DNA of 64,000 bases from Gloeocapsopsis dulcis (GCF_032163395.1 NZ_CP119968.1:2031501-2095500); one strand, 5' to 3'. Numbered from the stretch's first letter, positions 4,540-18,241 are shown. Notes: generated from the sequence alone by a model not told the origin. Made by a program: numbers and translations.

Positions 4540-5760
4540 CTAAAAATGTAAATAACTTTGAATAATCTCTACCGCCCGTTTGACTCCATCTTCTGCACGA
4601 ATGCGATCGCCTAAAGCACGGGCAGTAACCCTCATATTTTTATTGCAAATTACATTTTGAATTGCTGCCACAAACTGATCGCGGGTGAGTTCTTTTTGGG
4701 AAATTGGCAGTGTTCCTACACCTAAATCTGCAACTCGCTGTCCCCAAAAAGGTTGATCGACACCAAAGGGAATAACTATCGAAGGAACACCTGCACGTAA
4801 AGCTGCGGCTGTTGTTCCCGCGCCACCGTGATGGACTACCGCACGACACAGAGGAAACAGCCAATCATGAGGAATGTTACCAGTAATTGGAAATACATTG
4901 TCTGGCAAACTAACATTTTGTAGCCCTCCCCAATTGGAAAGCAAAATGCCGCGCTGTTTTGTTTGCATCAAGGCATCTAGCACTAAACTTGTTACAGTTT
5001 CTGGATTTCGTTCGCTCATGCTACCAAAACCGATATAAATTGGTGGTGTTCCTGATTGAATAAAATCAACTAAATCTGCTGGTGGTTGCCATTGGAACTC
5101 TTTTAGAAACCAATAGCCCGTAACATATGCCCCATCTGACCAATCTTTCGGCTTGGGAATCACAGTCGGGCTGAAACAATGAAGAATTGGTATTTGCCGC
5201 TGTTGTAGTTGAGAGTAAAAACCTGTAAAAGGTATCAGTGGTAAGTTTAAGTCCTGTCGCCAGCGATTAATCTTTTTTCGTACTGATTGCCAACGTAGTT
5301 GTTCGTGAACGACATACGTTAACCAGTTGTAAGTGCCACCGAAGTTGATCGGAGTTGTGTAAAGTGGGTGGGGAAATGCCCGCGTCCGAGTTAATGGATT
5401 GGTAAACGCCGCAAAGCATGGTACTTGTAACTTTTCGGCAATATGATAGCCAGGTAAGGCAACTTGAGAATAAATAATGGCTTCTGTGCCTTGACAGCAA
5501 CTCCAACAATCTTCTAAAAGTTGTTCTAAGTTATCGCAGAAGATTTGCCAGTAATCAACATTTTTTGCCAAAGCTTGGATATATTGTTGGGGATTTGTGC
5601 CTACTGCTGCAAAGTTTAATCCGTGACTGCGCACAAAATCCGCAAATCGAGCATAAGACGCAATTTGTATTTGATGACCAGCTGCTTGTAAACCTAGCCC
5701 TAACGCTACATAGGGCTGCACATCACCTCGACTACCAATTGCTAAGATCGTAATTTCCAT
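4540..5760 (-). CDS. UGT/GT28-like glycosyltransferase (GT1 superfamily)
   Basis: A 406-residue GT-B fold glycosyltransferase of the sterol/macrolide UDP-glycosyltransferase type. The N-terminus shows MEITILAIGSRGDVQPYVALG, the usual acceptor-domain start. The C-terminal donor site is the HHGGAGTTAAALRAGVPSIV stretch, followed by PFGVDQPFWGQRV. It likely transfers a sugar from a nucleotide sugar to a lipid or small-molecule acceptor. It is convergent with the GH1 beta-glucosidase; a conjugation/deconjugation pair is possible, but this is only inference. It starts at an ATG and has no signal peptide. Confidence 0.88.
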   Translation of the reverse strand: MEITILAIGSRGDVQPYVALGLGLQAAGHQIQIASYARFADFVRSHGLNFAAVGTNPQQYIQALAKNVDYWQIFCDNLEQLLEDCWSCCQGTEAIIYSQVALPGYHIAEKLQVPCFAAFTNPLTRTRAFPHPLYTTPINFGGTYNWLTYVVHEQLRWQSVRKKINRWRQDLNLPLIPFTGFYSQLQQRQIPILHCFSPTVIPKPKDWSDGAYVTGYWFLKEFQWQPPADLVDFIQSGTPPIYIGFGSMSERNPETVTSLVLDALMQTKQRGILLSNWGGLQNVSLPDNVFPITGNIPHDWLFPLCRAVVHHGGAGTTAAALRAGVPSIVIPFGVDQPFWGQRVADLGVGTLPISQKELTRDQFVAAIQNVICNKNMRVTARALGDRIRAEDGVKRAVEIIQSYLHF

Positions 5761-6071
5761 ACTGTTTTCTGGTCATTTTGATTAAAAATAGGCAGATTAA
5801 TTCTTGATTAAAAGAATTTACGCGCAAATCTAACGATAGATAGAGGAAAACTAGTTAATCTTCGTGTTTGCTCGTGATTGTGGTTTATGCTAAGACTTGT
5901 ATGAAACATTTACAATTTTTTTTAATTTGTCTTAAAGTTATATTTTTTGCTTAGTTTCTAGCTATATCGAATTTGTCGCCTATCTAAAGGAGGAAGCATT
6001 ATTAGGGTTGTTTCGCTAAATATAAATAATTGTAAACAAATTTTCAGAATTCACCCACGCCACTAGGAGAA
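5761..6071. other. Intergenic region between divergent genes
   Basis: An AT-rich 311-nt gap between the divergent glycosyltransferase and TIM-barrel genes, so it should hold promoters for both. I see no convincing -35/-10 pair or operator. A good ribosome binding site (AGGAGA at about 6065-6070) precedes the downstream ATGATG start. Confidence 0.5.
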
Positions 6072-7016
6072 ATGATGCAGGGAATTCGCGTTGCTAATGC
6101 CCCTTGTTCTTGGGGTGATTTGGGAGTGCAAGGACTTGAGGGTGAAAGTATTGGTTATCAGCAAATGTTGGATGAGCTAGTGGAAACTGGCTATGCTGGT
6201 ACTGATTTAGGTGATTGGGGATATATGCCTACAGATCCAGATCAGTTAACAACTGCACTTGAGCGCCGTAATCTCACAATCATCAGTGGCTATGTGCCAG
6301 TAGCAGTCAATAATCCAGAATCACATCAACAAGCTGAAGCACAGGCTCTCAAAATTGCTCGATTGCTATCAGCAGTTGCAGATTCGAGTAACAGTCAAAA
6401 AATCCGCCCTTTCATGGTGGTGATGGATCAAATTGGTGCTGTTCCTGTACGAACGCAAAATGCAGGAAGAGTTGAGCCAAGTATGGAGTTAAGTGATGAG
6501 GAGTGGCGTAAATGCATTCAGGGTGCAGAACGTATTGCACGTGCGATTCGGGATGAAACAGGAATGCGGACAACTTTTCACCATCATTGCGCTTCTTATC
6601 TAGAGACACCAAAAGAAATTACCCGTTTTCTAGAGCAAACTGACCCAAATTTGATTGGACTCACTTTAGACACTGGACACTATGCTTATGGTGCGGCGAC
6701 AGATGACGGACAGTGCGTGATAGACGCTTTTGAGCGCTTTGGCGATCGCATCTGGCACGTACATTTTAAAGACTGTGACTTTGAACTTGCCCAAGCCTCT
6801 CGCCAACAGGGTTGGGATTATTTTGAGGTTGTGCGTCGCGGGCTATTCTGCGAACTTGGCAAAGGCGGCGTAGATTTTCCAGGGGTAGTTTCTTGGCTAC
6901 GCGAACACAACTACGACGGTTGGATTGTTGTTGAACAAGATGTGCTTCCTGGCATGGGAACTCCTAAACAAAGTGCTCAACGCAACCGAGAATATTTAAA
7001 GCAATTGGGATTGTAA
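6072..7016 (+). CDS. Xylose-isomerase-like TIM barrel, inosose dehydratase (IolE)-like
   Basis: A 314-residue sugar phosphate isomerase/epimerase superfamily protein. Visible family elements are VANAPCSWG at the N-terminus, FHHHCASYLETP, the metal-site segments LTLDTGHYAYG and WHVHFKDCDF, and VEQDV near the C-terminus. IolE-type enzymes dehydrate scyllo-inosose; other members isomerise or epimerise ketoses. No other inositol catabolic genes are visible nearby, so a standard iol role is not supported. It is the nearest upstream plus-strand gene to the cyclitol cluster about 1 kb away, separated by a minus-strand small gene, so a cyclitol-related role is possible but unproven. Start at ATGATG after AGGAGA. 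Confidence 0.8.
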   Translation: MMQGIRVANAPCSWGDLGVQGLEGESIGYQQMLDELVETGYAGTDLGDWGYMPTDPDQLTTALERRNLTIISGYVPVAVNNPESHQQAEAQALKIARLLSAVADSSNSQKIRPFMVVMDQIGAVPVRTQNAGRVEPSMELSDEEWRKCIQGAERIARAIRDETGMRTTFHHHCASYLETPKEITRFLEQTDPNLIGLTLDTGHYAYGAATDDGQCVIDAFERFGDRIWHVHFKDCDFELAQASRQQGWDYFEVVRRGLFCELGKGGVDFPGVVSWLREHNYDGWIVVEQDVLPGMGTPKQSAQRNREYLKQLGL

Positions 7017-7029
7017 AAAGTTAGCATCA

Positions 7030-7200
7030 CCGCTCTCCGAGCGGAGTTATGAGTTATGAATTTTGAGTTTTGAATTTTAGAAAACATTTGTAATATTCTT
7101 AACTCAACACTCTTAAAAGCGTCCATTGCTCTATCCCCTAATTTTAAGTATGGGGATTCAACTCAACACTCAAAATTCAACACTCATAGCTCTTTTCTCT
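7030..7200. repeat. Hairpin plus GAGTTTTGA-type short repeats
   Basis: Just after the TIM-barrel gene stands a perfect 6-bp hairpin with a TCC loop (CCGCTC-TCC-GAGCGG, 7030-7044). It is followed by tracts built from GAGTTATGA / GAGTTTTGA and their complements AACTCAACACTC up to about 7190. The hairpin could end transcription, but there is no T-run after it. The tracts belong to the dispersed family also seen at 43-84, about 22.0 kb and about 33.3 kb. Confidence 0.65.
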
Positions 7201-7216
7201 TCTAGTATAGGAAATT

Positions 7217-7441
7217 CTATTGCCGACTTTTGTTTGAATCGCTGTGTTGTTGACGCAAGTTGAGTAAAGAAACTGTTACATGGTCATGAGAATCACCTGT
7301 GGAGGCGTCGGGTATCTTCTTTTTGAGTCTACGGACAAATTCACGAATGACATCTGATTGAGTCCGTTCAACTTGCACACAGTATTGCCTAAGTATTTCC
7401 AACTCATCATCGGAAAGTCTAACAAATAATCCTTTTTTCAT
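7217..7441 (-). CDS. Small ribbon-helix-helix (CopG-like) protein
   Basis: A 74-residue protein whose first 45 residues fit a ribbon-helix-helix DNA-binding fold: a short strand (GLFVRLS) followed by DDELEILRQYCVQVERTQSD and VIREFVRRLKKK, i.e. strand-helix-turn-helix. The tail is hydrophilic and not conserved-looking. Such proteins act as dimeric repressors or as antitoxins. No toxin gene is adjacent. It is divergent from the cyclitol cluster and could act on the 630-nt region between them, which is inference from position only. Confidence 0.6.
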   Translation of the reverse strand: MKKGLFVRLSDDELEILRQYCVQVERTQSDVIREFVRRLKKKIPDASTGDSHDHVTVSLLNLRQQHSDSNKSRQ

Positions 7442-8071
7442 GCTCTTGTGTTATCAAAATGATATACATTTATTATGGGTTGTTATTAGTGCGGTCTCCA
7501 CCAACAAAAAAAGCTAACAATAATTGCCAGCTGCATTGATGTGTCTATCGCTAGTATAAATAGTGACCGACACGGTAGAGGCAAAATAATTAGCAAAAAC
7601 TTTGCTTTTTGGATACATGCTTCTGTATTAACGCGCAGGTTGTAGTCAACTCCATCACAATAATCAACGTTGTTTGGATCGAGACAGCAACTGAACAAAA
7701 ACAAAAAGTAGTTCTCTGAGTATATTGCACTCTTGATTTGAATTTCTGTACGGAACCCAACCGAGACACAATTCAGCGCAAGAATCAATTTCCTCCAATA
7801 TCAAGCCATTGGCAGCGATGAGTATATAACTTGGGTGCTCTCTCTGCAAGTGCGATTGCGCTTTTCTCAGCGCCCAAGGCGATCGCAGGGACGAGTCCCT
7901 TCTGTGTACCTAGCCTTTGCTTTCCCCGTTCGGCGAAGCTGCTGCCTAAGCTTAAGTGGTTGAGTGCTTAAAAACGCTGTGTTATGTCGCAGCCACTACA
8001 ACCAAATTGCCAGCAGAGGTTTTTATTTCCGAATCACACAACTTGTTAAGTCAAGAGGATTGAAGAGGTTT
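7442..8071. other. Upstream region of the cyclitol/mycosporine-like cluster
   Basis: A 630-nt gap between divergent genes. It contains a perfect small hairpin GGGAC-GA-GTCCC at 7888-7899 and a degenerate GC-rich palindromic patch at about 7910-7955. Minus-strand open frames at 7486-7788 and 7664-7849 have no family look and are not called. An in-frame GTG at 7964 could extend the cyclase by 36 residues, but the ATG at 8072 is better placed. Promoters for the cluster are expected here; none can be named. Confidence 0.5.
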
Positions 8072-9217
8072 ATGAGTGCCAAGTGGTCAGTCAAGACACA
8101 ATTACCAGTTCATTACACTGTATTTGAGAGTTTCGACCTATTCAATCCTGAAAACAACGCATTGTTGTTCGATGGGCAGAATTCGAGCCTACAGTCTTTG
8201 CGTCGAGTCGTTGTTGTAGATGACTATGTTGAACGTCTTCACGGAGAACGTATTCGCCAGTACTTTCAGTATCACGAAATTGAATACCGCTTGATCTCGC
8301 TTTCAGTATCTGAAGACAATAAGTCGATGGACACGGTTTTTCAGGTAATTGAAGAACTTAATGCTTTTGAAGTTTCACGGCGATCAGAACCAGTGATTGC
8401 AATTGGTGGCGGCGTACTGATGGATATTGTCGGCTTGGCTGCTAACCTTTTTCGACGGGGAATTCCATATATCCGTGTTCCTACAACCTTACTAGGAGTT
8501 GTCGATGCGGCAATTGGTGCCAAAACAGCGGTAAATTTTCAAGGTCATAAAAACCGCATTGGAACATTTTATCCTCCACTTGCGGCAATACTTGATACAA
8601 CGCTGTTACAAACCTTAAGTGACAGACAAATTAGTAATGGTATTGCCGAGATCTTAAAAATTGCACTCGTTAAAGACGCAGAATTATTTGTGTTATTGGA
8701 AAATCACGGCGCAGCAATGCTGAGTAGCAAGTGCCAAAATCCAGAAGCCATGCCAATTATTCAGCGTTCGGTGCAAGGAATGTTAGAAGATTTGGAATCA
8801 AATTTATGGGAGGAGAAACTCGAAAGACTCGTAGATTACGGTCACACTTTCTGCCCTACGCTAGAGTTGAAAGCTGTACCAAAACTATTACACGGGGAAG
8901 CTGTTGCCGTTGATATGGCAATTTCAGTGATGCTTGCCTATCAAAGAAGTTTAGTGTCTTATCAAGAAGTCGAACGCGTTTATAACTTGATGCACAGTCT
9001 GCGTTTACCGTTACTTCATCCAATTTGTACACCCGAATTACTCTTTGCCGCATTACAAAGTACAACAAAACATCGCAATGGGCTACAACGCTTTCCATTA
9101 ACTGTAGGAATTGGTTCAGCACAATTTTTCCACGATATTACCTACGAAGAAATCAAAACAGCTGTAAAAGCAATCGGGCAATTAGAACCAGACGCAGCAA
9201 TGCAAACTTCTTTGTAA
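8072..9217 (+). CDS. Sugar phosphate cyclase, 2-epi-5-epi-valiolone synthase (EEVS) type
   Basis: A DHQ-synthase-like NAD/metal-dependent cyclase of 381 residues that should cyclise sedoheptulose 7-phosphate. Seen: GGGVLMDIVG (about 112-121), VPTTLLGVVDAAIGAKTAVN, KNRIGTFYPP, metal-site residues E193, H258 (DYGHTF) and H274 (LHGEA). Known: EEVS and the MAA enzyme DDGS are told apart by three active-site positions, Leu/Asp/His in EEVS versus Glu/Ala/Thr in DDGS. Here they are L241, D255 and H334 (TKHRNG where DDGS has TRDG), and SNLWEEKLERLVDYGHTF is EEVS-like. So the product is predicted to be 2-epi-5-epi-valiolone rather than desmethyl-4-deoxygadusol; 2-epi-valiolone synthase activity is not excluded. 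ATG 8072 follows GAAGAGG; an upstream GTG at 7964 is less likely. First gene of a tight four-gene plus-strand cluster. Confidence 0.85.
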   Translation: MSAKWSVKTQLPVHYTVFESFDLFNPENNALLFDGQNSSLQSLRRVVVVDDYVERLHGERIRQYFQYHEIEYRLISLSVSEDNKSMDTVFQVIEELNAFEVSRRSEPVIAIGGGVLMDIVGLAANLFRRGIPYIRVPTTLLGVVDAAIGAKTAVNFQGHKNRIGTFYPPLAAILDTTLLQTLSDRQISNGIAEILKIALVKDAELFVLLENHGAAMLSSKCQNPEAMPIIQRSVQGMLEDLESNLWEEKLERLVDYGHTFCPTLELKAVPKLLHGEAVAVDMAISVMLAYQRSLVSYQEVERVYNLMHSLRLPLLHPICTPELLFAALQSTTKHRNGLQRFPLTVGIGSAQFFHDITYEEIKTAVKAIGQLEPDAAMQTSL

Positions 9218-9249
9218 TTCATATCAACGTTATCGCTTTTGCAAAAGAC

Positions 9250-9906
9250 ATGACCACAGTCAACGAGACGATCGAATACAACGAGCAACTCAGTCAATAT
9301 ATTCGCAACTTATTCGTTGTTGAAGATGAAACCTTACAACAAATTCGCGAACGACCACCAAAAGAGGGTTTACCTCCCCACGACATTAACCCAGAAGAAG
9401 GGCGCTTTCTGCAACTGTTGGTTCGCGCTAGCAATGCAAAATCGGCAGTAGAGTTTGGCACACTTGTAGGGTATAGCAGTATTTGGATTGCCCGTGGCTT
9501 AGCACCAGGTGGTAAATTGTTCACCTTTGAGAAAGAACCAATGTGCGTGGACATTGCTAAAGAGAATTTTGCCAAAGCCAATGTTGCTCACCAAATAGAG
9601 ATTCTTTGTGGCGATGCTCACACCTTAGTTGATTCTATTGCTGAAGCACCTTTTGATTTCGTGTTCATCGACGCGGAAAAGACAGGTTACATTGATTACT
9701 TTGATTGGGCATTAGAAAATACCCGTCCTGGCGGGTTTATTGTTGCTCATAACGTATTCCTCCACCGCACCATCCTTGATTCCGATACAACCGATGAAGG
9801 AGTCAAAGCAATGCAGATGTTCCATAAACACGTTGCTGCCTCTAACCGTGTCATGAGTACTGTATTTCCGGCAGGAGATGGAACTCTTGTTGCGGTAACT
9901 GCCTAA
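9250..9906 (+). CDS. Class I SAM-dependent O-methyltransferase (COMT/CCoAOMT-like), cyclitol cluster
   Basis: A 218-residue methyltransferase of the caffeoyl-CoA/catechol O-methyltransferase family. SAM-binding VEFGTLVGYSSIWIA lies at about 67-81. FVFIDAEKTGY places metal ligand D141. The usual second Asp of the D-D-N metal site is His here (H167-N168, in IVAHNVFL). It sits 32 nt after the cyclase and 24 nt before the ATP-grasp gene, in the place MysB has in MAA clusters. It is shorter than MysB and lacks the long MysB N-terminus, so it is probably not its orthologue. Likely methylates the cyclitol ring. ATG 9250 was chosen because the open frame upstream overlaps the cyclase gene. Confidence 0.85.
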   Translation: MTTVNETIEYNEQLSQYIRNLFVVEDETLQQIRERPPKEGLPPHDINPEEGRFLQLLVRASNAKSAVEFGTLVGYSSIWIARGLAPGGKLFTFEKEPMCVDIAKENFAKANVAHQIEILCGDAHTLVDSIAEAPFDFVFIDAEKTGYIDYFDWALENTRPGGFIVAHNVFLHRTILDSDTTDEGVKAMQMFHKHVAASNRVMSTVFPAGDGTLVAVTA

Positions 9907-9930
9907 ATCCGTTTTCTAGGGCATGCAATC

Positions 9931-11295
9931 ATGGAATCAGTACAAACTATCCGCAAGCAGACTTTTGCTTTACTCAAAAGCCTCAGCACCTTAACTTTAC
10001 TTTTACTTGCTTTTCCATTCTCTTTGAGCATTGTTGTTGTCACGCTGTTATGGAGTTCGCTGACAAGTTTATTTCAACAGCGTCGCCTACAGGCAGAGAA
10101 TCCGAAGAGGATCTTGCTCACTGGTGCCAAGATGACAAAATGCTTAACCCTGGCGCGATCGTTTCATGCCGCTGGGCATCGCGTTTTCATGGTAGAAACC
10201 AAAAAGTACTGGTTATCAGGCAATCAGTTTTCCAACTGCGTAGCAGCTTTATACACTGTTCCTGCGCCACAACATGACGCTGAAGGTTACATCCAAGGGC
10301 TACTGGATATTGTCAAGCAAGAAAAAATTGATCTGTTCATTCCCGTCTCTAGCCCAGTTGCTAGTTATTACGACTCTTTAGCCAAACCAGCATTGTCGCC
10401 CTATTGCGAGGTGTTTGCTTTTGATGCTGAGACAACTAAGCTACTAGACAACAAGTTCACTTTCAACCAAAAAGCACATTCTGTAGGGCTATCTGCTCCG
10501 AAAACCTTCTTAATTACAGATCCAGAACAGGTTCTCCAATTTGACTTTGCATCTGACGGCAGCCAGTACATTCTTAAAAGCATTGCCTACGACTCAATTA
10601 ACCGCTTGGCTTTGCTCAAATTGCCCTGTTCTGCTGACAAAATGGCTGAATATGTTTATGCTTTGCCAATTAGTGAGGCAAATCCCTGGATTATGCAGGA
10701 GTTTCTCAAAGGGCAAGAGTATTGTACTCACGCTGTTGCTAGAGATGGGCAGTTACTGCTTTATGCTTGTGCCAAATCTTGCGATTTCTTGGTGAACTAC
10801 GAGCATGACTATAATCCCGCAATTCTCGATTGGGTGACTCGTTTCGTCAAAGAACTCAACCTGACAGGACAAATTTGTTTAGACTTTATTCAAGCAGCGG
10901 ATGGCACAGTTTATCCCATTGAATGTAATCCGCGAACGAGTACCTGCATCACAATGTTCCACGACCAACCGAAGGTAGTGGCAGATGCTTACCTCAGTAG
11001 TAGTGCGCCACCAAAAGAACCCGTGCAGCCTTTACCTGATAGTAAGCCTACTTATTGGACATTCCATGAGCTTTGGCGGTTACTGAATATTAAGTCTTGG
11101 CAAGATCTTCAGCATCGGCTCAGCATTATTTTCAATGGCATAGACCCAGTTTTTCATCCTCGCGATCCACTGCCATTTCTTGGAGTCAACCACTGGCAAA
11201 TTCCTTTGCTAATTCTTTACAACGTGCGTCAATTTAAAGGCTGGGAACGCATTGACTTTAACATTGGCAAGCTAGTGCAGTTGGGAGGCGATTAA
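9931..11295 (+). CDS. MysC-like ATP-grasp ligase
   Basis: A 454-residue protein closely resembling MysC, which joins glycine to 4-deoxygadusol in mycosporine-glycine synthesis. It has an N-terminal hydrophobic segment (about 17-45), the MysC-like stretches TGAKMTKCLTLARSFHAAGH and YTVPAPQ, then SPVASYYDSLAKPAL, the ATP-grasp core with LKSIAYDS, IMQEFLKGQEYCTH and LDFIQAADGTVYPIECNPRT, and a C-terminal IDFNIGKLVQLGGD. Metal/ATP residues of the ECNPR motif are present. It lies 24 nt after the O-methyltransferase and is surely co-transcribed. With an EEVS-type cyclase upstream, its acceptor may be a gadusol-like or valiolone-derived cyclohexenone instead of 4-deoxygadusol. No MysD or MysE follows. 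Confidence 0.9.
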   Translation: MESVQTIRKQTFALLKSLSTLTLLLLAFPFSLSIVVVTLLWSSLTSLFQQRRLQAENPKRILLTGAKMTKCLTLARSFHAAGHRVFMVETKKYWLSGNQFSNCVAALYTVPAPQHDAEGYIQGLLDIVKQEKIDLFIPVSSPVASYYDSLAKPALSPYCEVFAFDAETTKLLDNKFTFNQKAHSVGLSAPKTFLITDPEQVLQFDFASDGSQYILKSIAYDSINRLALLKLPCSADKMAEYVYALPISEANPWIMQEFLKGQEYCTHAVARDGQLLLYACAKSCDFLVNYEHDYNPAILDWVTRFVKELNLTGQICLDFIQAADGTVYPIECNPRTSTCITMFHDQPKVVADAYLSSSAPPKEPVQPLPDSKPTYWTFHELWRLLNIKSWQDLQHRLSIIFNGIDPVFHPRDPLPFLGVNHWQIPLLILYNVRQFKGWERIDFNIGKLVQLGGD

Positions 11296-11339
11296 TTTCG
11301 TTTAACTCTTCACCAGGCTCAAAACCAAACAACATTAAA

Positions 11340-11423
11340 ACTTACGCAAGGACTCTCTAAAACTCTTATTCCTTGGTGTCCTTTGTGTCTTTGTGGTTCG
11401 TTTTTTCATAATTTTGCGTAAGT
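11340..11423. mobile_element. MITE-like element with 10-bp terminal inverted repeats
   Basis: An 84-bp element bounded by perfect 10-bp inverted repeats, ACTTACGCAA at 11340-11349 and TTGCGTAAGT at 11414-11423. Its interior includes a phrase of the type CCTTTGTGTCTTTGTGGTTC, which I recognise as a widely dispersed cyanobacterial repeat. It encodes nothing and lies between the ATP-grasp gene and the second methyltransferase. It could form a hairpin in the transcript. Confidence 0.7.
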
Positions 11424-11453
11424 CCTGAACATTACATTCGTAGCGGAGTTTAA

Positions 11454-12512
11454 ATGACAACTACACTTGCTCAAAAAACTAACAACATGGAAGCCAAAAA
11501 GAAAATTTTTGGCATAATTCAAGCTTTCTGGGAAAGTCAGTGTTTATACGTAGCAACCCGTCTAGATATCTTTAATATATTGTCCGAAGGATCGCAAAGT
11601 ATTGAAACCTTAGCAGAAAAAACTGCAACTAAAGTAGACAAACTCTATATTATCTTGCGTGCTTTAGGACACTTAGGAGTCTTAGAAGAACAGCCAGGAA
11701 GAGTTTTTGCTGCTACAGAAGTGTCTGAACTGCTGATTACAAATGCTGGACCTTCAATTGGTCATTTTGCGATGCACATTATTGAACCAGCACAGTGGGA
11801 TGCTTGGAAAGTGTTGGAGACTTGTTTACATACTGGTGAAGTGCCGTTTGAGCGTGCTAATGGCAAGACGGTTTATGAGTTTACACGAGATGAAGACTGG
11901 AGTGGCGATGTTTTCATCAAAGCTATGAGTTTCTTAACCGATCATGCTGTTGATGCATTGCTCGAGGTTTTTGATTTTAGCCGCTTTAATACAGTGATGG
12001 ATGTCGGTGGTGGTCAAGGCGGACTCATTTCTAAGATTGTCAAGCGCTTTGGCTGTAAAGGGATCTTATTTGATTTACCGTATGTTACAGAAACAGCACC
12101 CGCATATATTGAAAAACAGGGTGTTGCGGCTAATGCACTCCAAATTGTAACAGGTGATGTCTTTCAAGGGTTGCCGACTGGGGCTGATGCCATTGTGATG
12201 AAGTATTTCTTATCTTCATGGAAAGATGAGGATGCTCTGATGATACTGCGTCATTGTAGAGAAGCACTACCAAAACATGGCAAGGTAGTTTTATTACAGT
12301 GTATTGTTCCAGATTTAGGTGAGCCGACAGTTTGCCCTGATGGAATAATTCCATCACTATTTGCTACACAAATTATGGTGGCAGTTCCTGGCGGTGCGTG
12401 GCGTACTCAGAAAGAATATGAACGCTTATTTACAGCGAGTGGTTTCCAACTCGAAAATGTCGTGCATACAGGAACTAATCTCTCAGCACTGGAATTTGGT
12501 TTAGTCGATTGA
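11454..12512 (+). CDS. Class II O-methyltransferase (acetylserotonin/hydroxyneurosporene type)
   Basis: A 352-residue SAM methyltransferase with an N-terminal dimerisation/winged-helix part (about 15-100) and a C-terminal Rossmann domain carrying VMDVGGGQGG at 181-190. Family members methylate hydroxyls on polyketides, carotenoids, phenolics and similar compounds. In most relatives a catalytic His stands in an HDW-D-E motif; here that motif reads SSWKDED, so the His is replaced. It lies about 160 nt after the ATP-grasp gene on the same strand, beyond the MITE-like repeat, with GGAG before its ATG. It may add a second methyl group to the cluster product, or serve a separate pathway. Confidence 0.85.
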   Translation: MTTTLAQKTNNMEAKKKIFGIIQAFWESQCLYVATRLDIFNILSEGSQSIETLAEKTATKVDKLYIILRALGHLGVLEEQPGRVFAATEVSELLITNAGPSIGHFAMHIIEPAQWDAWKVLETCLHTGEVPFERANGKTVYEFTRDEDWSGDVFIKAMSFLTDHAVDALLEVFDFSRFNTVMDVGGGQGGLISKIVKRFGCKGILFDLPYVTETAPAYIEKQGVAANALQIVTGDVFQGLPTGADAIVMKYFLSSWKDEDALMILRHCREALPKHGKVVLLQCIVPDLGEPTVCPDGIIPSLFATQIMVAVPGGAWRTQKEYERLFTASGFQLENVVHTGTNLSALEFGLVD

Positions 12513-12618
12513 AGCTTTAAAATTGAAGAGCTGAGGAAGTTAAGGCTGCAGGTGAACAGGAAAAGAATAATACGATCAACTTCTCTTGCACTAGCCCCTC
12601 GCTCCTCGCTCCTCAACT

Positions 12619-15579
12619 CTAGCTTTCACTACAAACAAGCATCTGAGATTGTTCTAGCTCTATTAGAAGTTGTTGCCACTCTAGCCCAGCTAAGTTGTCA
12701 TGCACAATATGAGCATTACCGATACGTTCTACTGGACCAAGTCCCAAAACCCACATTCCAGCAGATAATCCGGCGGCAACTCCCGAACCAGCGTCTTCCA
12801 CAACTAGACATTCGTGTGGCTGCAATCCTAACTGCCCAGCAGCATACAGAAATACATCAGGGGCTGGCTTATGATGTTCCACACTGTAACCATCAGCGAT
12901 CGCATTTAAGCGCTCTGCAATTCCTAAGCGTTGACACACCAGGCGGGCGTTTTTACTCGATGAACCGATCGCAACTTTAATATCCGCAGCTTGTAGTTCA
13001 TCTAACAAAGCAAGTGCCCCTGGAAGTAAATCGGCTGGCGTGAGGTTTTGAATTAACTGCTCATAGTAGCTGTTTTTGCGTACCATCATCTCCTGAAGTT
13101 CCGCTTCACTCACTGCGCAATCACCCAACATATGCAACAGTGAATCGCGGCGTGACAATCCCCGCATTTGCTCGTTAGCTTGACGGTCGAAGGCAATGCC
13201 GATTTCATCTGCGAGTTGTTTCCAGGCTAAGTAATGATACTCTGAAGTATCTGTTAAAACACCATCTAAATCAAAAATGACGCCTCGAAGTGGAGTTATC
13301 GTAGAGCGATCGCTCAGTACCACATTTGGTTTTACTTGATTTAACCCCTCAGCAGATATTCCTGATGCTTCTGGTTTTTGTGTTGTCATAATTACGGCAT
13401 CGGATGAAATGTCAAAGTTGTACCATTGCTGACGCCATTGCAGCTTAAACTGCAAACGTGTCCAGTTAGATGGTAAATGAGGTCTATCGACAATTGGTCC
13501 TGCTTCAGTCAAACGTATACCGGCAAAACCAAAGACAACAGCTTGCCATACTCCACCAGATGAAGCCGCATGAACACCTTCACCGGCATTACCACGGACA
13601 TCTTTGAGATCTACTAATGCTGCCCGCATAAAATGTTCGTAAGCTGTAGCAGGTTCATCTAATTCACAAGCCAAGATTGCATGAATTGCAGGTCCTAAGG
13701 AAGATCCGTAGGTGTGATCGGTACGAGGAGTATAATAATTCCAATTTGCTTGTAATAACTGACGCCGCTGTTGGGCTGTTATCTCAGTTTTCAACGGCGT
13801 ATCTCGCAGCAGGTACAACAGCATTAAGATATCAGGTTGCTTCAGAATTTGCTTTTCATTTGTTCCTTCAACACCGAGAATCGCTTGCATCGACTGCGTA
13901 CGCCATTGATAATCTGTCCAGTCGATGTCTTCTAAATCAAAGAAACCTTCAAATTGCTCGATAACTCCTGTGTCTGTCGGTTGAGCCACTAGCATATGGC
14001 GGATAATATGCGACCACCGCTTTGTCCGTTCTGGTCTAATATCCAACTTCTGTGCTAACTCCGCTGCTCGTTCTGGATAGTGTTGATGCAACCAATCATA
14101 TACAGTTAAAGCAATTTCCAAGTGCCACTGCGCCATGCGGTTGGTAAAAGTATTGTTATCGACGCGCTCGTGGTTTTCATCTGGACCAATGACATCGCGA
14201 ATTTCATAACATTGGCGATCGCTATTCCATTCGACGCGGCTACCCCAAAAGACTGCGGTATCAAGGATGATTTCTGCGCCCTCGCGTTGCATCCAATCGT
14301 CATCGTGCGTTGCTTGCCAATAGTGCCAAACCGCATAAGCAATATCTGTATTGATATGAACTTCAATATCACCACACCAGATGCGTACAGGTTCGCCCTC
14401 AGGACCAAATACCCAACGCGGAGTCACTTCATCACCTGTATTTGCACTTTCCCAGGCAAAGATTGCGCCTTCATAGCCTGCGGCTTGGGCTTTACGTCTG
14501 GCACCTTCTAAGGTGTGGTAGCGATAAGACAGTAAGTTGCGGGCAATTTGTGGTTGTGTAAATGTAAAGAAGGGAACTATAAAGACCTCGGTATCCCAAA
14601 ATACGTGACCGCGATAAGCAAATCCTGATAGCGTTTTTGCCGGAATGCTGACGCGGTTGTTATGCCGTGGTGCGGCGGCGAGGATTTGAAACAGATTATA
14701 ACGAACCGCAATTTGGGCTGTGGAGTCGCCACTAATGACAATATCGCAGTCTTGCCACAAATCATCCCACACTGCACCGTGAGCTGCGAGTAAAGTTGTA
14801 TAACTCGGCAAACTCGCCAGTCGTTCTTGGGCTGCAGATACAGGTTGGTCTGCTTCGAGTGAAGTAAAAACAGTCACGATTTTTTCTAAGGTGACAGTCT
14901 TACCTGGCTGTGCCTGAAATACTGTTGTTAATGTCGGACTACCAAGCTCTCCTGTAAGTTTAACGGGTGTTGCTTCCGAACACGCAAGTTGAAATGCCAT
15001 CCCTAGCTCAATTTCCGAATGGCTACAGCGCTGGCGTAACCAGGCGTTATTATTGCTACCACCTTGTTCGAGCCAATCCCAATGTTTGACACCGTGATTA
15101 TCTACGTTACCATTGATGCTAGCTTCGACCGCGATCGCTCCTGTAAAGTCTAGCGGCGTTATCTGGCAGTGCAGCACCAAAACATGATCGTCTGCCATGC
15201 TGATTATGCGCTCAAAGTGGAGCTTTACGGTATGCCCACCAGGACTACGCCACAACACGTCACGGCTAACAATACCCCAGCGCAGGTCTAGCTGGCGCTG
15301 ATATTCTAATATCTCGCCTTGATTTAGACAAAAGCGATCGCTTCCTATGTATACTGTTAATGGCAGCCAATCTGGACAGTTGACTAGTTCCGTATGCATA
15401 ACGGGAACATGATCGTACACGCCATTAATTAAAGTGGCTGCACTGGCGTTTGGGTAGCCCTCTTCAAAGCTGCCGCGCGTGCCAAGGTAACCGTTACCCA
15501 AGGTAAATAAAGTTTCCTTGTGGTGCAGTTCTGCTGGGTCAAATTGAGTTTCAAAAACATTCCAACCGCTGTAGTCCAT
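12619..15579 (-). CDS. GH65 disaccharide phosphorylase fused to beta-phosphoglucomutase
   Basis: A 986-residue two-domain fusion. Residues 1-745 are a GH65 inverting phosphorylase of the maltose/trehalose/kojibiose type: LFTLGNGYLGTRGSFEEG, FWDTEVFIVP, the general acid E468 in GPDENH and a phosphate-site HAASSGG. Residues 763-986 are a HAD-superfamily beta-phosphoglucomutase with nucleophile D770 and D772 in FDLDGVLTDT, then IGSSSKNA, HHKPAPD and VVEDAGSG. The pairing makes chemical sense: the phosphorylase releases beta-glucose 1-phosphate, which the mutase turns into glucose 6-phosphate. Disaccharide specificity cannot be read. It follows a debranching-type gene and a GT4 gene on the same strand. 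Confidence 0.9.
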   Translation of the reverse strand: MDYSGWNVFETQFDPAELHHKETLFTLGNGYLGTRGSFEEGYPNASAATLINGVYDHVPVMHTELVNCPDWLPLTVYIGSDRFCLNQGEILEYQRQLDLRWGIVSRDVLWRSPGGHTVKLHFERIISMADDHVLVLHCQITPLDFTGAIAVEASINGNVDNHGVKHWDWLEQGGSNNNAWLRQRCSHSEIELGMAFQLACSEATPVKLTGELGSPTLTTVFQAQPGKTVTLEKIVTVFTSLEADQPVSAAQERLASLPSYTTLLAAHGAVWDDLWQDCDIVISGDSTAQIAVRYNLFQILAAAPRHNNRVSIPAKTLSGFAYRGHVFWDTEVFIVPFFTFTQPQIARNLLSYRYHTLEGARRKAQAAGYEGAIFAWESANTGDEVTPRWVFGPEGEPVRIWCGDIEVHINTDIAYAVWHYWQATHDDDWMQREGAEIILDTAVFWGSRVEWNSDRQCYEIRDVIGPDENHERVDNNTFTNRMAQWHLEIALTVYDWLHQHYPERAAELAQKLDIRPERTKRWSHIIRHMLVAQPTDTGVIEQFEGFFDLEDIDWTDYQWRTQSMQAILGVEGTNEKQILKQPDILMLLYLLRDTPLKTEITAQQRRQLLQANWNYYTPRTDHTYGSSLGPAIHAILACELDEPATAYEHFMRAALVDLKDVRGNAGEGVHAASSGGVWQAVVFGFAGIRLTEAGPIVDRPHLPSNWTRLQFKLQWRQQWYNFDISSDAVIMTTQKPEASGISAEGLNQVKPNVVLSDRSTITPLRGVIFDLDGVLTDTSEYHYLAWKQLADEIGIAFDRQANEQMRGLSRRDSLLHMLGDCAVSEAELQEMMVRKNSYYEQLIQNLTPADLLPGALALLDELQAADIKVAIGSSSKNARLVCQRLGIAERLNAIADGYSVEHHKPAPDVFLYAAGQLGLQPHECLVVEDAGSGVAAGLSAGMWVLGLGPVERIGNAHIVHDNLAGLEWQQLLIELEQSQMLVCSES

Positions 15580-15862: not shown

Positions 15863-18241
15863 TTAAGCTTCAATAACAACTCGGAGGTTTCCGCGTTTTC
15901 TGGCAACGCGACACGCAGTAGTATTGCCCGAACGCTCAAATTCCAGATCTAATAAAGTAGGTCCAACGCGCAAGTTGTGTACAGACAGGGTATTAATTGA
16001 TTCTGGCAAAGCAGGGTCAATGATTCGCAAGCAGTTGTTTTTAGCATCAGGAACTAAATTCACCATCATTTGCAAAAGTTGAAAGATACTTCCTGTTGCC
16101 CAAGCTTGTGGCGAACATGCAACTGGATACTGTACGGGATCGTTATCGTTTGTGCGTTCGTAGCCGCAAAACAATTCTGGTGGTCGTTGATAAGGCTGAC
16201 GTTGGGTCATTTCTAAAATACTTTGAGAAAGCTCAAGAGCTTGATCGATCAATCCTAGCGATCGCACACCCATAGCAATCATTGAGTTGTCATGTGGCCA
16301 AACTGAACCAATGTGATACCCCATCGGATTATATGCTGGGGACAAGCTACTCAGAGTGCGAATGCCCCAACCGTTGAACATATCAGGTCCTCGTAACCGT
16401 TCTGCTACACTGTAAGCTTTTTCTGGTGTGAGAATGCCCAGGTGTAGACAATGACCAGGATTAGAAGTGATACTATCAACCTGCTTGCCTTCACCATCTA
16501 AAGCTAAAGCACAGTAATCTTGCTCCTTCATCCAAAAGTCACGATTGAATCGTTCTCTAAGAAGATTGGCATCTTCTTGCCAGCGTTCTGCTAAGTCGAG
16601 CCGCTTTTTCATCCTGGCTATTTCTGCTAAGCGGACTTTTGCTGCATAAACGTACGCTTGAACTTCGCATAATGTAATAGAACCATTAGCTAAGTGCCCG
16701 TGCCGATCTACAATACAATCATCTGAGTCTTTCCATCCTTGGTTAACTAAACCACGTCGGGAAGTACGAAAATAGCTAAGATAACCTGTTTTTTCACAAT
16801 TCAGGTCAATCCACTCCATTGCAGCTAGCGCATTCGACCACAGTTGCTCTAGGGTTTCGTTGTCGTGCGTCCAAGCATAGTATTCTGTGTAGAGCATTAA
16901 CCACAATGGGGTTGCGTCTACTGTGCCATAGTAAGGTGTATGAGGAATTTCTTGGCAACGTGCCATTTCACCCATACGCAACTCGTGCAGAATTTTACCT
17001 GGTTGTTCTTCCCGCCACTCATCTTCTATTTTACCTTGATAAGCAGCAAGAATAGTGAGTGTTTCCCGCGCGATCGCAGGGTTCAACATGAGCGTTTGTG
17101 ACGCTGTAATCAGCGAGTCGCGCCCAAATAATGCAGAAAACCAGGGAACACCAGCTGAGACGACTTTGCAGCTACCAAAACTTTTGCCAATTGATTGTCG
17201 CAAGAGATACAAATCTTGCTCGGCGCGTTCGATTGTCCGATTAAAAATAACTTTATCTGAGCGAATTTGCGTAATATGGTGTCGCCAATTTTGCTCTTCT
17301 AATAACTCAGCAGCTTTCGCCTGTACTAATGTCATTGGAGCACTGACAGTTGAAGTCTGCTGATGGTTAGTCAGCATTTGTAGCCGATAGCCCAACTTTT
17401 GCGTTTGGTGAGAAACTAGTTCTATTTGCCAAATTGCCGTGTAGCCTTTAAAAGATTTCGGTTGGAGGTATTGGAACTGAATACGTGATTCTAGCAGCGA
17501 TCCATCTAACCCTTGATAAGCTAGTGTCAGTGCGTCTTGATAACACAATAGGTAAGCACCATCATTTGATGAGGCGTCATCATCTTGAGGTTTGGTTGAT
17601 GGTTCAGCCAGGCGCAGAAGCCTACCGCGTTTTTCTCGCTGAAAGCCTCGAATTTCAAATAAATCAATAAAATCGGCATCAAAGCTAAGACTTAGCTCAA
17701 AACTCACTGAGCTAGTACTATAATTTGTAATTTCGATTTCTTCAAATAACGCTCCACCCAGCGCCATTTCTCTACGAATTCCTAGTGCATCAGCTTTTAA
17801 GCGGTCTTCAATTGTCGGATTGGTACATAGAATTGACAGTGAGAAACCTTTATCAGCAGTACTACTCAGCAGCACTGGCGATCGCCCTTCAATTTGCAAC
17901 TCTAGCCGACTGAGAAACCGAGTATCATTGCAAAAAAGCCCCATGCTTGCTTTTTGTTCATCTGTTGCGCCTATACAGCCAGAAATATTCCCTAGCGTAT
18001 CAGTGACTAGGAATAAATCGTCATCTTTGACTGTGAGTGTCGGTTGCGGTCGTTCACTTAAGACACAAGGCCACTCGGGAATCGGTAACTGCTGTGCTGG
18101 AACAAAAATTCTCCCATCTAGTTCGAGTTTGTCTGTTGTCATCAGCGTATCTGGTGTCATGCCAAATATTTCCGCTTCCACAATGTGATTTACATTTCTC
18201 AGGCTGTTAATTGCTTTCACAGTGTTTGACAGGTCAAACAA
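15863..18241 (-). CDS. Glycogen-debranching-type amylo-alpha-1,6-glucosidase
   Basis: A 792-residue protein of the cyanobacterial amylo-alpha-1,6-glucosidase family: an N-terminal beta-rich domain (about 60-300, with the NDTRFLSRLE element) and a C-terminal (alpha/alpha)6 domain (about 330-740) with PWFSALFGRDSLITA, DATPLWLMLY and GYHIGSVWPHDNSMIA. It probably trims glucose branches from glucans or hydrolyses short oligosaccharides. The longest frame opens at a TTG. Internal ATG codons at residues 28 and 34 (18160 and 18142) are alternatives, and the true start is uncertain. It is 283 nt upstream of the GH65 fusion on the same strand, fitting a storage or compatible-solute sugar locus. Confidence 0.85.
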   Translation of the reverse strand: MFDLSNTVKAINSLRNVNHIVEAEIFGMTPDTLMTTDKLELDGRIFVPAQQLPIPEWPCVLSERPQPTLTVKDDDLFLVTDTLGNISGCIGATDEQKASMGLFCNDTRFLSRLELQIEGRSPVLLSSTADKGFSLSILCTNPTIEDRLKADALGIRREMALGGALFEEIEITNYSTSSVSFELSLSFDADFIDLFEIRGFQREKRGRLLRLAEPSTKPQDDDASSNDGAYLLCYQDALTLAYQGLDGSLLESRIQFQYLQPKSFKGYTAIWQIELVSHQTQKLGYRLQMLTNHQQTSTVSAPMTLVQAKAAELLEEQNWRHHITQIRSDKVIFNRTIERAEQDLYLLRQSIGKSFGSCKVVSAGVPWFSALFGRDSLITASQTLMLNPAIARETLTILAAYQGKIEDEWREEQPGKILHELRMGEMARCQEIPHTPYYGTVDATPLWLMLYTEYYAWTHDNETLEQLWSNALAAMEWIDLNCEKTGYLSYFRTSRRGLVNQGWKDSDDCIVDRHGHLANGSITLCEVQAYVYAAKVRLAEIARMKKRLDLAERWQEDANLLRERFNRDFWMKEQDYCALALDGEGKQVDSITSNPGHCLHLGILTPEKAYSVAERLRGPDMFNGWGIRTLSSLSPAYNPMGYHIGSVWPHDNSMIAMGVRSLGLIDQALELSQSILEMTQRQPYQRPPELFCGYERTNDNDPVQYPVACSPQAWATGSIFQLLQMMVNLVPDAKNNCLRIIDPALPESINTLSVHNLRVGPTLLDLEFERSGNTTACRVARKRGNLRVVIEA

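Follow-up and report, generated by a model that had tools for sequence, protein, structure and literature searches.

We analysed a 64,000-nucleotide stretch of the Gloeocapsopsis dulcis genome (GCF_032163395.1 NZ_CP119968.1:2031501-2095500; hereafter the window, with positions counted from its first letter), which carries a cluster resembling those for mycosporine-like amino acids (MAAs) but built on a cyclase of the 2-epi-5-epi-valiolone synthase (EEVS) type instead of desmethyl-4-deoxygadusol synthase (DDGS). Four genes follow one another on one strand: an EEVS-type sugar phosphate cyclase (8072-9217, +, 381 aa), a single-domain class I S-adenosylmethionine O-methyltransferase occupying the MysB position (9250-9906, +, 218 aa; PF01596), a MysC-like ATP-grasp ligase (9931-11295, +, 454 aa) and a PF00891-type methyltransferase, here called OMT2 (11454-12512, +, 352 aa), separated by gaps of 32, 24 and 158 bp. 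An earlier note on this DNA had placed the cluster at 8072-12512; these coordinates are right, but the conserved block probably runs upstream to a gene for an IolE-like TIM barrel of the myo-inosose-2 dehydratase family (6072-7016, +), which is a candidate for the dehydration of the EEVS product, and perhaps to the gene for a GT28-type (macrolide-like) glycosyltransferase that lies divergently beside it (4540-5760, -; Pfam EryCIII-like_C / Glyco_transf_28).

EEVS is the type of ring-forming enzyme that fish use to make gadusol and Streptomyces to make acarbose-like sugars. The cyclase of the window had been assigned to it from Leu241, Asp255 and His334, which are found at exactly those positions of the open reading frame 8072-9217 (codons 8792-8794, 8834-8836 and 9071-9073). 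These residues align with the Leu, Asp and His of the solved EEVS 4p53 and with the Glu, Ala and Thr of the solved DDGS 5tpr. When 37 EEVS-type and 16 DDGS-type sequences were aligned, comprising those of the fetched loci and the two structures, the three positions separated Leu/Asp/His from Glu/Ala/Thr with no exceptions, and at all three the window cyclase lacks the DDGS-type residue. It scores 394 bits against 4p53 over a full-length alignment and 241 bits against 5tpr. Columns were called discriminating where the actinobacterial EEVS and the cyanobacterial DDGS differ and each set is uniform to 95% or more; of 23 such columns, the window cyclase agrees with EEVS in 19, with DDGS in 2 and with neither in 2.

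A first tree, rooted with AroB/EboD, had very long branches and an unreliable root, and the analysis was rerun with the root on DDGS. In this second tree the DDGS sequences form one clade (100/100), and the window cyclase and five relatives form another (100/100) among the EEVS; the grouping of this clade with rhizobial EEVS is weak (77/54), and its exact place among the EEVS is weakly supported. The clustering with DDGS that the earlier note had named as a refutation did not occur, since the cyclase falls outside the DDGS clade. Residues, bit scores and tree together rule out a DDGS identity, and the discriminating columns agree, so that the earlier proposal of an EEVS-type cyclase replacing DDGS in a MysC cluster holds. 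The 5.6 Mb genome contains no DDGS, its three PF01761 matches being AroB, an EboD-like gene adjoining a UbiA-type gene, and this EEVS. That the enzyme makes 2-epi-5-epi-valiolone (EEV) from sedoheptulose 7-phosphate is thus a strongly supported prediction from its sequence. It might instead have kept or regained DDGS activity despite its EEVS-type residues and feed ordinary MAAs by the standard route, as its MysC and OMT2 neighbours of MAA-cluster type and the two DDGS-like columns would allow; against the active-site triad, the 19 EEVS-like columns, the position in the tree and the fact that the MysB partner has been replaced too (~31% identity), we regard this as very improbable.

The ligase had been described as clearly MysC-like, and the comparison agrees. 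It matches NF005315 with 476 bits, over the cut-off, shares 52-61% identity with 15 DDGS-adjacent MysC copies that are 57-95% identical among themselves, and retains 133 of the 154 residues invariant in canonical MysC, while the 21 changes do not vary among the seven locus copies compared, which come from six genomes. MysD, searched for in these six genomes, gave only weak Ddl-like matches, the three control genomes being positive, and the product of the cluster therefore probably bears a single amino acid.

The methyltransferase between cyclase and ligase has another background. It shares ~31% identity with MysB of DDGS clusters, lacks the MysB N-terminal region and was not found to be orthologous to MysB; its nearest PDB entry is 3dul, and one usual metal-ligand position is changed (AHN for DN). 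It is a single PF01596 domain with no fused oxidase domain of the kind that characterises MT-Ox, the methyltransferase-oxidase of gadusol synthesis. Judged by sequence, and given this low identity to MysB as against the MysC-type conservation of the ligase, the EEVS and its methyltransferase neighbour are of non-MAA lineage and the MysC of MAA lineage. In two of the DDGS loci, L064 (65%) and L052, a homologue of OMT2 likewise comes after MysC. The usual catalytic His, part of the LHDW motif in the PF00891 O-methyltransferases matched, is replaced in OMT2 by Ser (FLSSWKDED), and OMT2 may for this reason differ from ordinary O-methyltransferases; as klebsormidins carry an N-methyl group, N-methylation is a reasonable guess, and OMT2 is a suspected N-methyltransferase.

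Most bacterial EEVS clusters make compounds of the C7-cyclitol type, and the rhizobial and Streptomyces loci look like clusters of this kind. The EEVS of the window could likewise feed a valienone- or streptol-like C7-cyclitol that the MysC-like ligase and the methyltransferases turn into an aminocyclitol, for example an osmolyte or an enzyme inhibitor, and the adjoining glycosyltransferase would suit such a product. The ligase, however, retains most MysC invariants, OMT2 has its homologues behind MysC in DDGS clusters, and the block holds neither an aminotransferase nor a cyclitol kinase; a non-sunscreen product seems to us extremely unlikely.

Close relatives of this EEVS occur in only 6 of 391 genomes of the order, all belonging to two closely related genera of a single family, namely Gloeocapsopsis and Gloeocapsa (the PCC 7428 group), and in a sample of 386 genomes of the phylum only in the genus of the window. 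Gloeocapsa sp. PCC 7428 is among the six (G396), as shown by 100% identity to its plasmid NC_019746. In all six the gene order is thrS, beta-glucosidase, GT28 glycosyltransferase, IolE-like gene, EEVS, O-methyltransferase, MysC, OMT2 and GH65. Other genera of the family have a DDGS (~40% identity to the EEVS), usually followed by MysB and MysC. Replacement of mysAB in place at one locus is unsupported, because the DDGS loci of the relatives have other neighbours.

The cluster is kept by strong purifying selection. Ratios of nonsynonymous to synonymous substitution rates (dN/dS) among three genomes were 0.02-0.04 for the EEVS, 0.03-0.07 for the class I methyltransferase, 0.06-0.08 for the ligase, 0.04-0.05 for OMT2 and 0.08-0.13 for the IolE-like gene; it is these low values (0.02-0.13 from the EEVS to the IolE-like gene) that indicate maintenance, and the range of 0.02-0.08 across the four core genes, together with intact frames, rules out decay. 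For the GT28 glycosyltransferase dN/dS was 0.15-0.18; its orthologues above 80% identity are confined to the six EEVS genomes, with the next best at 48%, and it is a possible tailoring enzyme whose membership of the cluster is uncertain.

The IolE-like gene is present in all six EEVS genomes and in none of 13 other genomes of the family, and in the phylum sample it found no strong match in other genera, only two distant weak ones. Its product scores 185 bits against TIGR04379, under the equivalog cut-off of 290. The nearest PDB sequence is the IolE 3cny, and the best fold matches of the predicted model (pLDDT 82) are 3cny and the IolE structures 9zmu-9zmw; among the further fold neighbours are the inosose isomerase IolI and the 3-dehydroshikimate dehydratase AsbF, both of which act on ring ketones. 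Of the 44 residues that do not vary among four true IolE, the protein keeps 40, and in Deinococcus and Thermus its best plasmid relatives (48%) are part of complete iol operons. It thus resembles the IolE of inositol catabolism in family, fold and conserved residues, but differs in lying beside an EEVS with no adjoining iol genes. No IolD scored above the cut-off anywhere in the window genome (best 219 and 198 bits against 715), which leaves ordinary inositol catabolism unsupported as a role for the gene. Genes for xylose-isomerase-like TIM barrels are likewise found next or close to EEVS genes on Rhizobium and Agrobacterium plasmids (L151 11571-12392, L152 13044-13886) and at three actinobacterial loci (L074, L081, L091). 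Orthology of the IolE-like protein with the rhizobial barrels was rejected for want of any similarity; the barrels beside EEVS may represent a second, non-orthologous family, perhaps modifying EEV.

Taken together, these genes probably encode a functional hybrid mycosporine pathway that combines the EEVS, the methyltransferase and the MysC-like ligase, perhaps with the IolE-like protein, and we are confident that at least the EEVS step and the MysC-like ligation step belong to one pathway. Sedoheptulose 7-phosphate would first be closed by EEVS, not DDGS, to give EEV, which would then have to be converted into a 1,3-diketone core. EEV is C7H12O6 and desmethyl-4-deoxygadusol (DDG) is C7H10O5, a difference of one water with no redox change, so that an EEVS and a dehydratase acting together could rebuild the usual core. 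The best candidate for this loss of water is the IolE-like enzyme: keto shifts and beta-eliminations are typical of the IolE/IolI superfamily, and removal of the C4 hydroxyl from the 2-keto tautomer of EEV would yield DDG. The class I methyltransferase would next add the 2-O-methyl group in the role of MysB, the MysC-like ligase would join one amino acid to give a mycosporine, as its homology suggests, and OMT2, probably by N-methylation, and perhaps the GT28 glycosyltransferase might complete the product.

Our leaning is slightly against, rather than for, the IolE-like dehydratase as the enzyme that takes EEV to the diketone core. Tentatively, and with somewhat more doubt, we propose that EEVS and a dehydratase drawn from inositol catabolism jointly do what DDGS does alone, a convergent two-enzyme substitute supplying the deoxygadusol core ahead of MysC. 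Several points weigh against this route. The IolE-like gene lies ~1 kb from the EEVS, outside the tight operon, and may have hitch-hiked, since its co-occurrence is confined to one clade. IolE chemistry on EEV itself would remove O-3 first, and the formation of DDG also needs a keto shift between C1 and C2. Finally, an extract of a close relative absorbs at 325-330 nm (PMC12967839), as against 310 nm for mycosporine-glycine (PMC7118736), which is more in keeping with a gadusol core or a second amino acid. The earlier note expected a product other than ordinary mycosporine-glycine; this is only a possibility, because with the upstream IolE-type dehydratase gene, which the note had overlooked, the usual core could still be formed.

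The main rival, which we hold to be less likely, is a gadusol-core mycosporine, for which EEV would be oxidised by an oxidoreductase encoded elsewhere and methylated to gadusol by the class I methyltransferase before MysC adds the amino acid, the IolE-like gene being a bystander or having another role. The expected product would be a prasiolin- or klebsormidin-like compound with one extra ring hydroxyl and an absorption maximum at ~324 nm. In prasiolin and the klebsormidins a gadusol core does bear a single amino acid, and their absorption lies at 324 nm, that of mycosporine-glycine at 310 nm (PMC4698291, PMC7118736). Green algal clusters that combine EEVS and Mt-Ox with a MysC homologue, and with an O-methyltransferase related to cyanobacterial ones near mysABC, have been proposed to make such compounds (PMC7826186). 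Absorption is given as 325-330 nm for Gloeocapsa BRSZ, which is near PCC 7428, and as 326 nm for Gloeocapsa C-90-Cal-G (PMC12967839). With no MysD in the six genomes to add a second amino acid, a mono-substituted compound absorbing at 325 nm would favour the gadusol core. However, the conserved block contains no oxidoreductase and no oxidase fused to a methyltransferase, the BRSZ spectrum was taken on an extract purified only in part and comes with no mass, and a second amino acid could come from a MysE-like non-ribosomal peptide synthetase (NRPS).

Several systems already described resemble the locus in part. Like the cyanobacterial mysA(DDGS)-mysB-mysC clusters, the locus has the order cyclase, O-methyltransferase and MysC ligase, and an OMT2 homologue can follow MysC in both; it differs from them in its cyclase, its non-MysB methyltransferase, the lack of MysD, the IolE-like gene upstream and its other genomic neighbours. 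The green algal neighbourhood of EEVS, Mt-Ox, MysC-like ligase and O-methyltransferase, proposed for klebsormidin-type compounds, likewise joins an EEVS to a MysC homologue and an extra methyltransferase, but the present cluster is bacterial and has a single-domain methyltransferase and an IolE-like gene in place of an Mt-Ox fusion (PMC7826186). Vertebrate gadusol synthesis also begins with EEVS and continues with a methyltransferase, there MT-Ox (PMC4426668); here the oxidase domain is missing and a ligase is present. Gadusporines have moreover been made by combining vertebrate EEVS/Mt-Ox with bacterial mysC and mysD (PMC7826186).

The MAA cluster reported for Gloeocapsa BRSZ and PCC 7428 is very probably the same cluster, the PCC 7428 EEVS being 96% identical to that of the window. 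It is described as EEVS, O-methyltransferase and ATP-grasp and treated as an ordinary mysA-mysB-mysC set, and the portions of the reports compared carry no remark on its unusual nature, the swapped cyclase or the IolE-like gene (PMC11636366, PMC12967839). The view that an EEVS plus MysC pathway is uncharacterised stands only in part, as both the proposal for algae and the synthetic gadusporines came earlier (PMC7826186); in cyanobacteria the hybrid apparently went unrecognised. The cyanobacterial hybrid, its range of two genera, its IolE-like partner and the replacement of MysB appear to be undescribed in the literature compared, a set that left out the 2017 survey of C7-cyclitol synthase distribution (doi 10.1021/acschembio.7b00066).

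If the hybrid pathway is as proposed, it would join gadusol and MAA synthesis in a natural bacterial hybrid. Its hosts are cyanobacteria of rocks and hot springs that tolerate desiccation and heat, a group in which a 325-330 nm sunscreen has been seen. Two questions become testable with this cluster: does MysC naturally take a gadusol core as its substrate, and is an inosose dehydratase able to stand in for the complex DDGS reaction? The cluster also warns that automatic mysA-mysB-mysC calls can mask other chemistry.

Additional observations concern neighbouring sequences and related loci. An Rfam search of 5700-12700 gave no match, and an imperfect 33-nt inverted repeat (85%) lies at 7044-7192 between the IolE-like gene and the EEVS. 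Downstream, on the opposite strand, a GH65 phosphorylase/hydrolase is fused to a beta-phosphoglucomutase domain (12619-15579, -; 229 bits for that domain, over the cut-off) and adjoined by a glycogen-debranching-type gene (15863-18241), possibly serving disaccharide metabolism of a desiccation-tolerant strain. The search for MysE returned many NRPS matches; one, in the window's genome but outside the window, is a single-module MysE-like NRPS in two pieces (57% and 41%; G000:C1:1825009-1826871), possibly a decayed MysE-like gene, and another genome (G398) has an intact MysE-like NRPS of 50% identity. Among the DDGS loci, one (L053 6087-8845, G386) has two tandem MysC copies behind a single DDGS-MysB pair, and in another, from a genome of the same family (L052 5420-7860, G401), MysC and the OMT2 homologue are each split in two frames, through decay or an assembly error.

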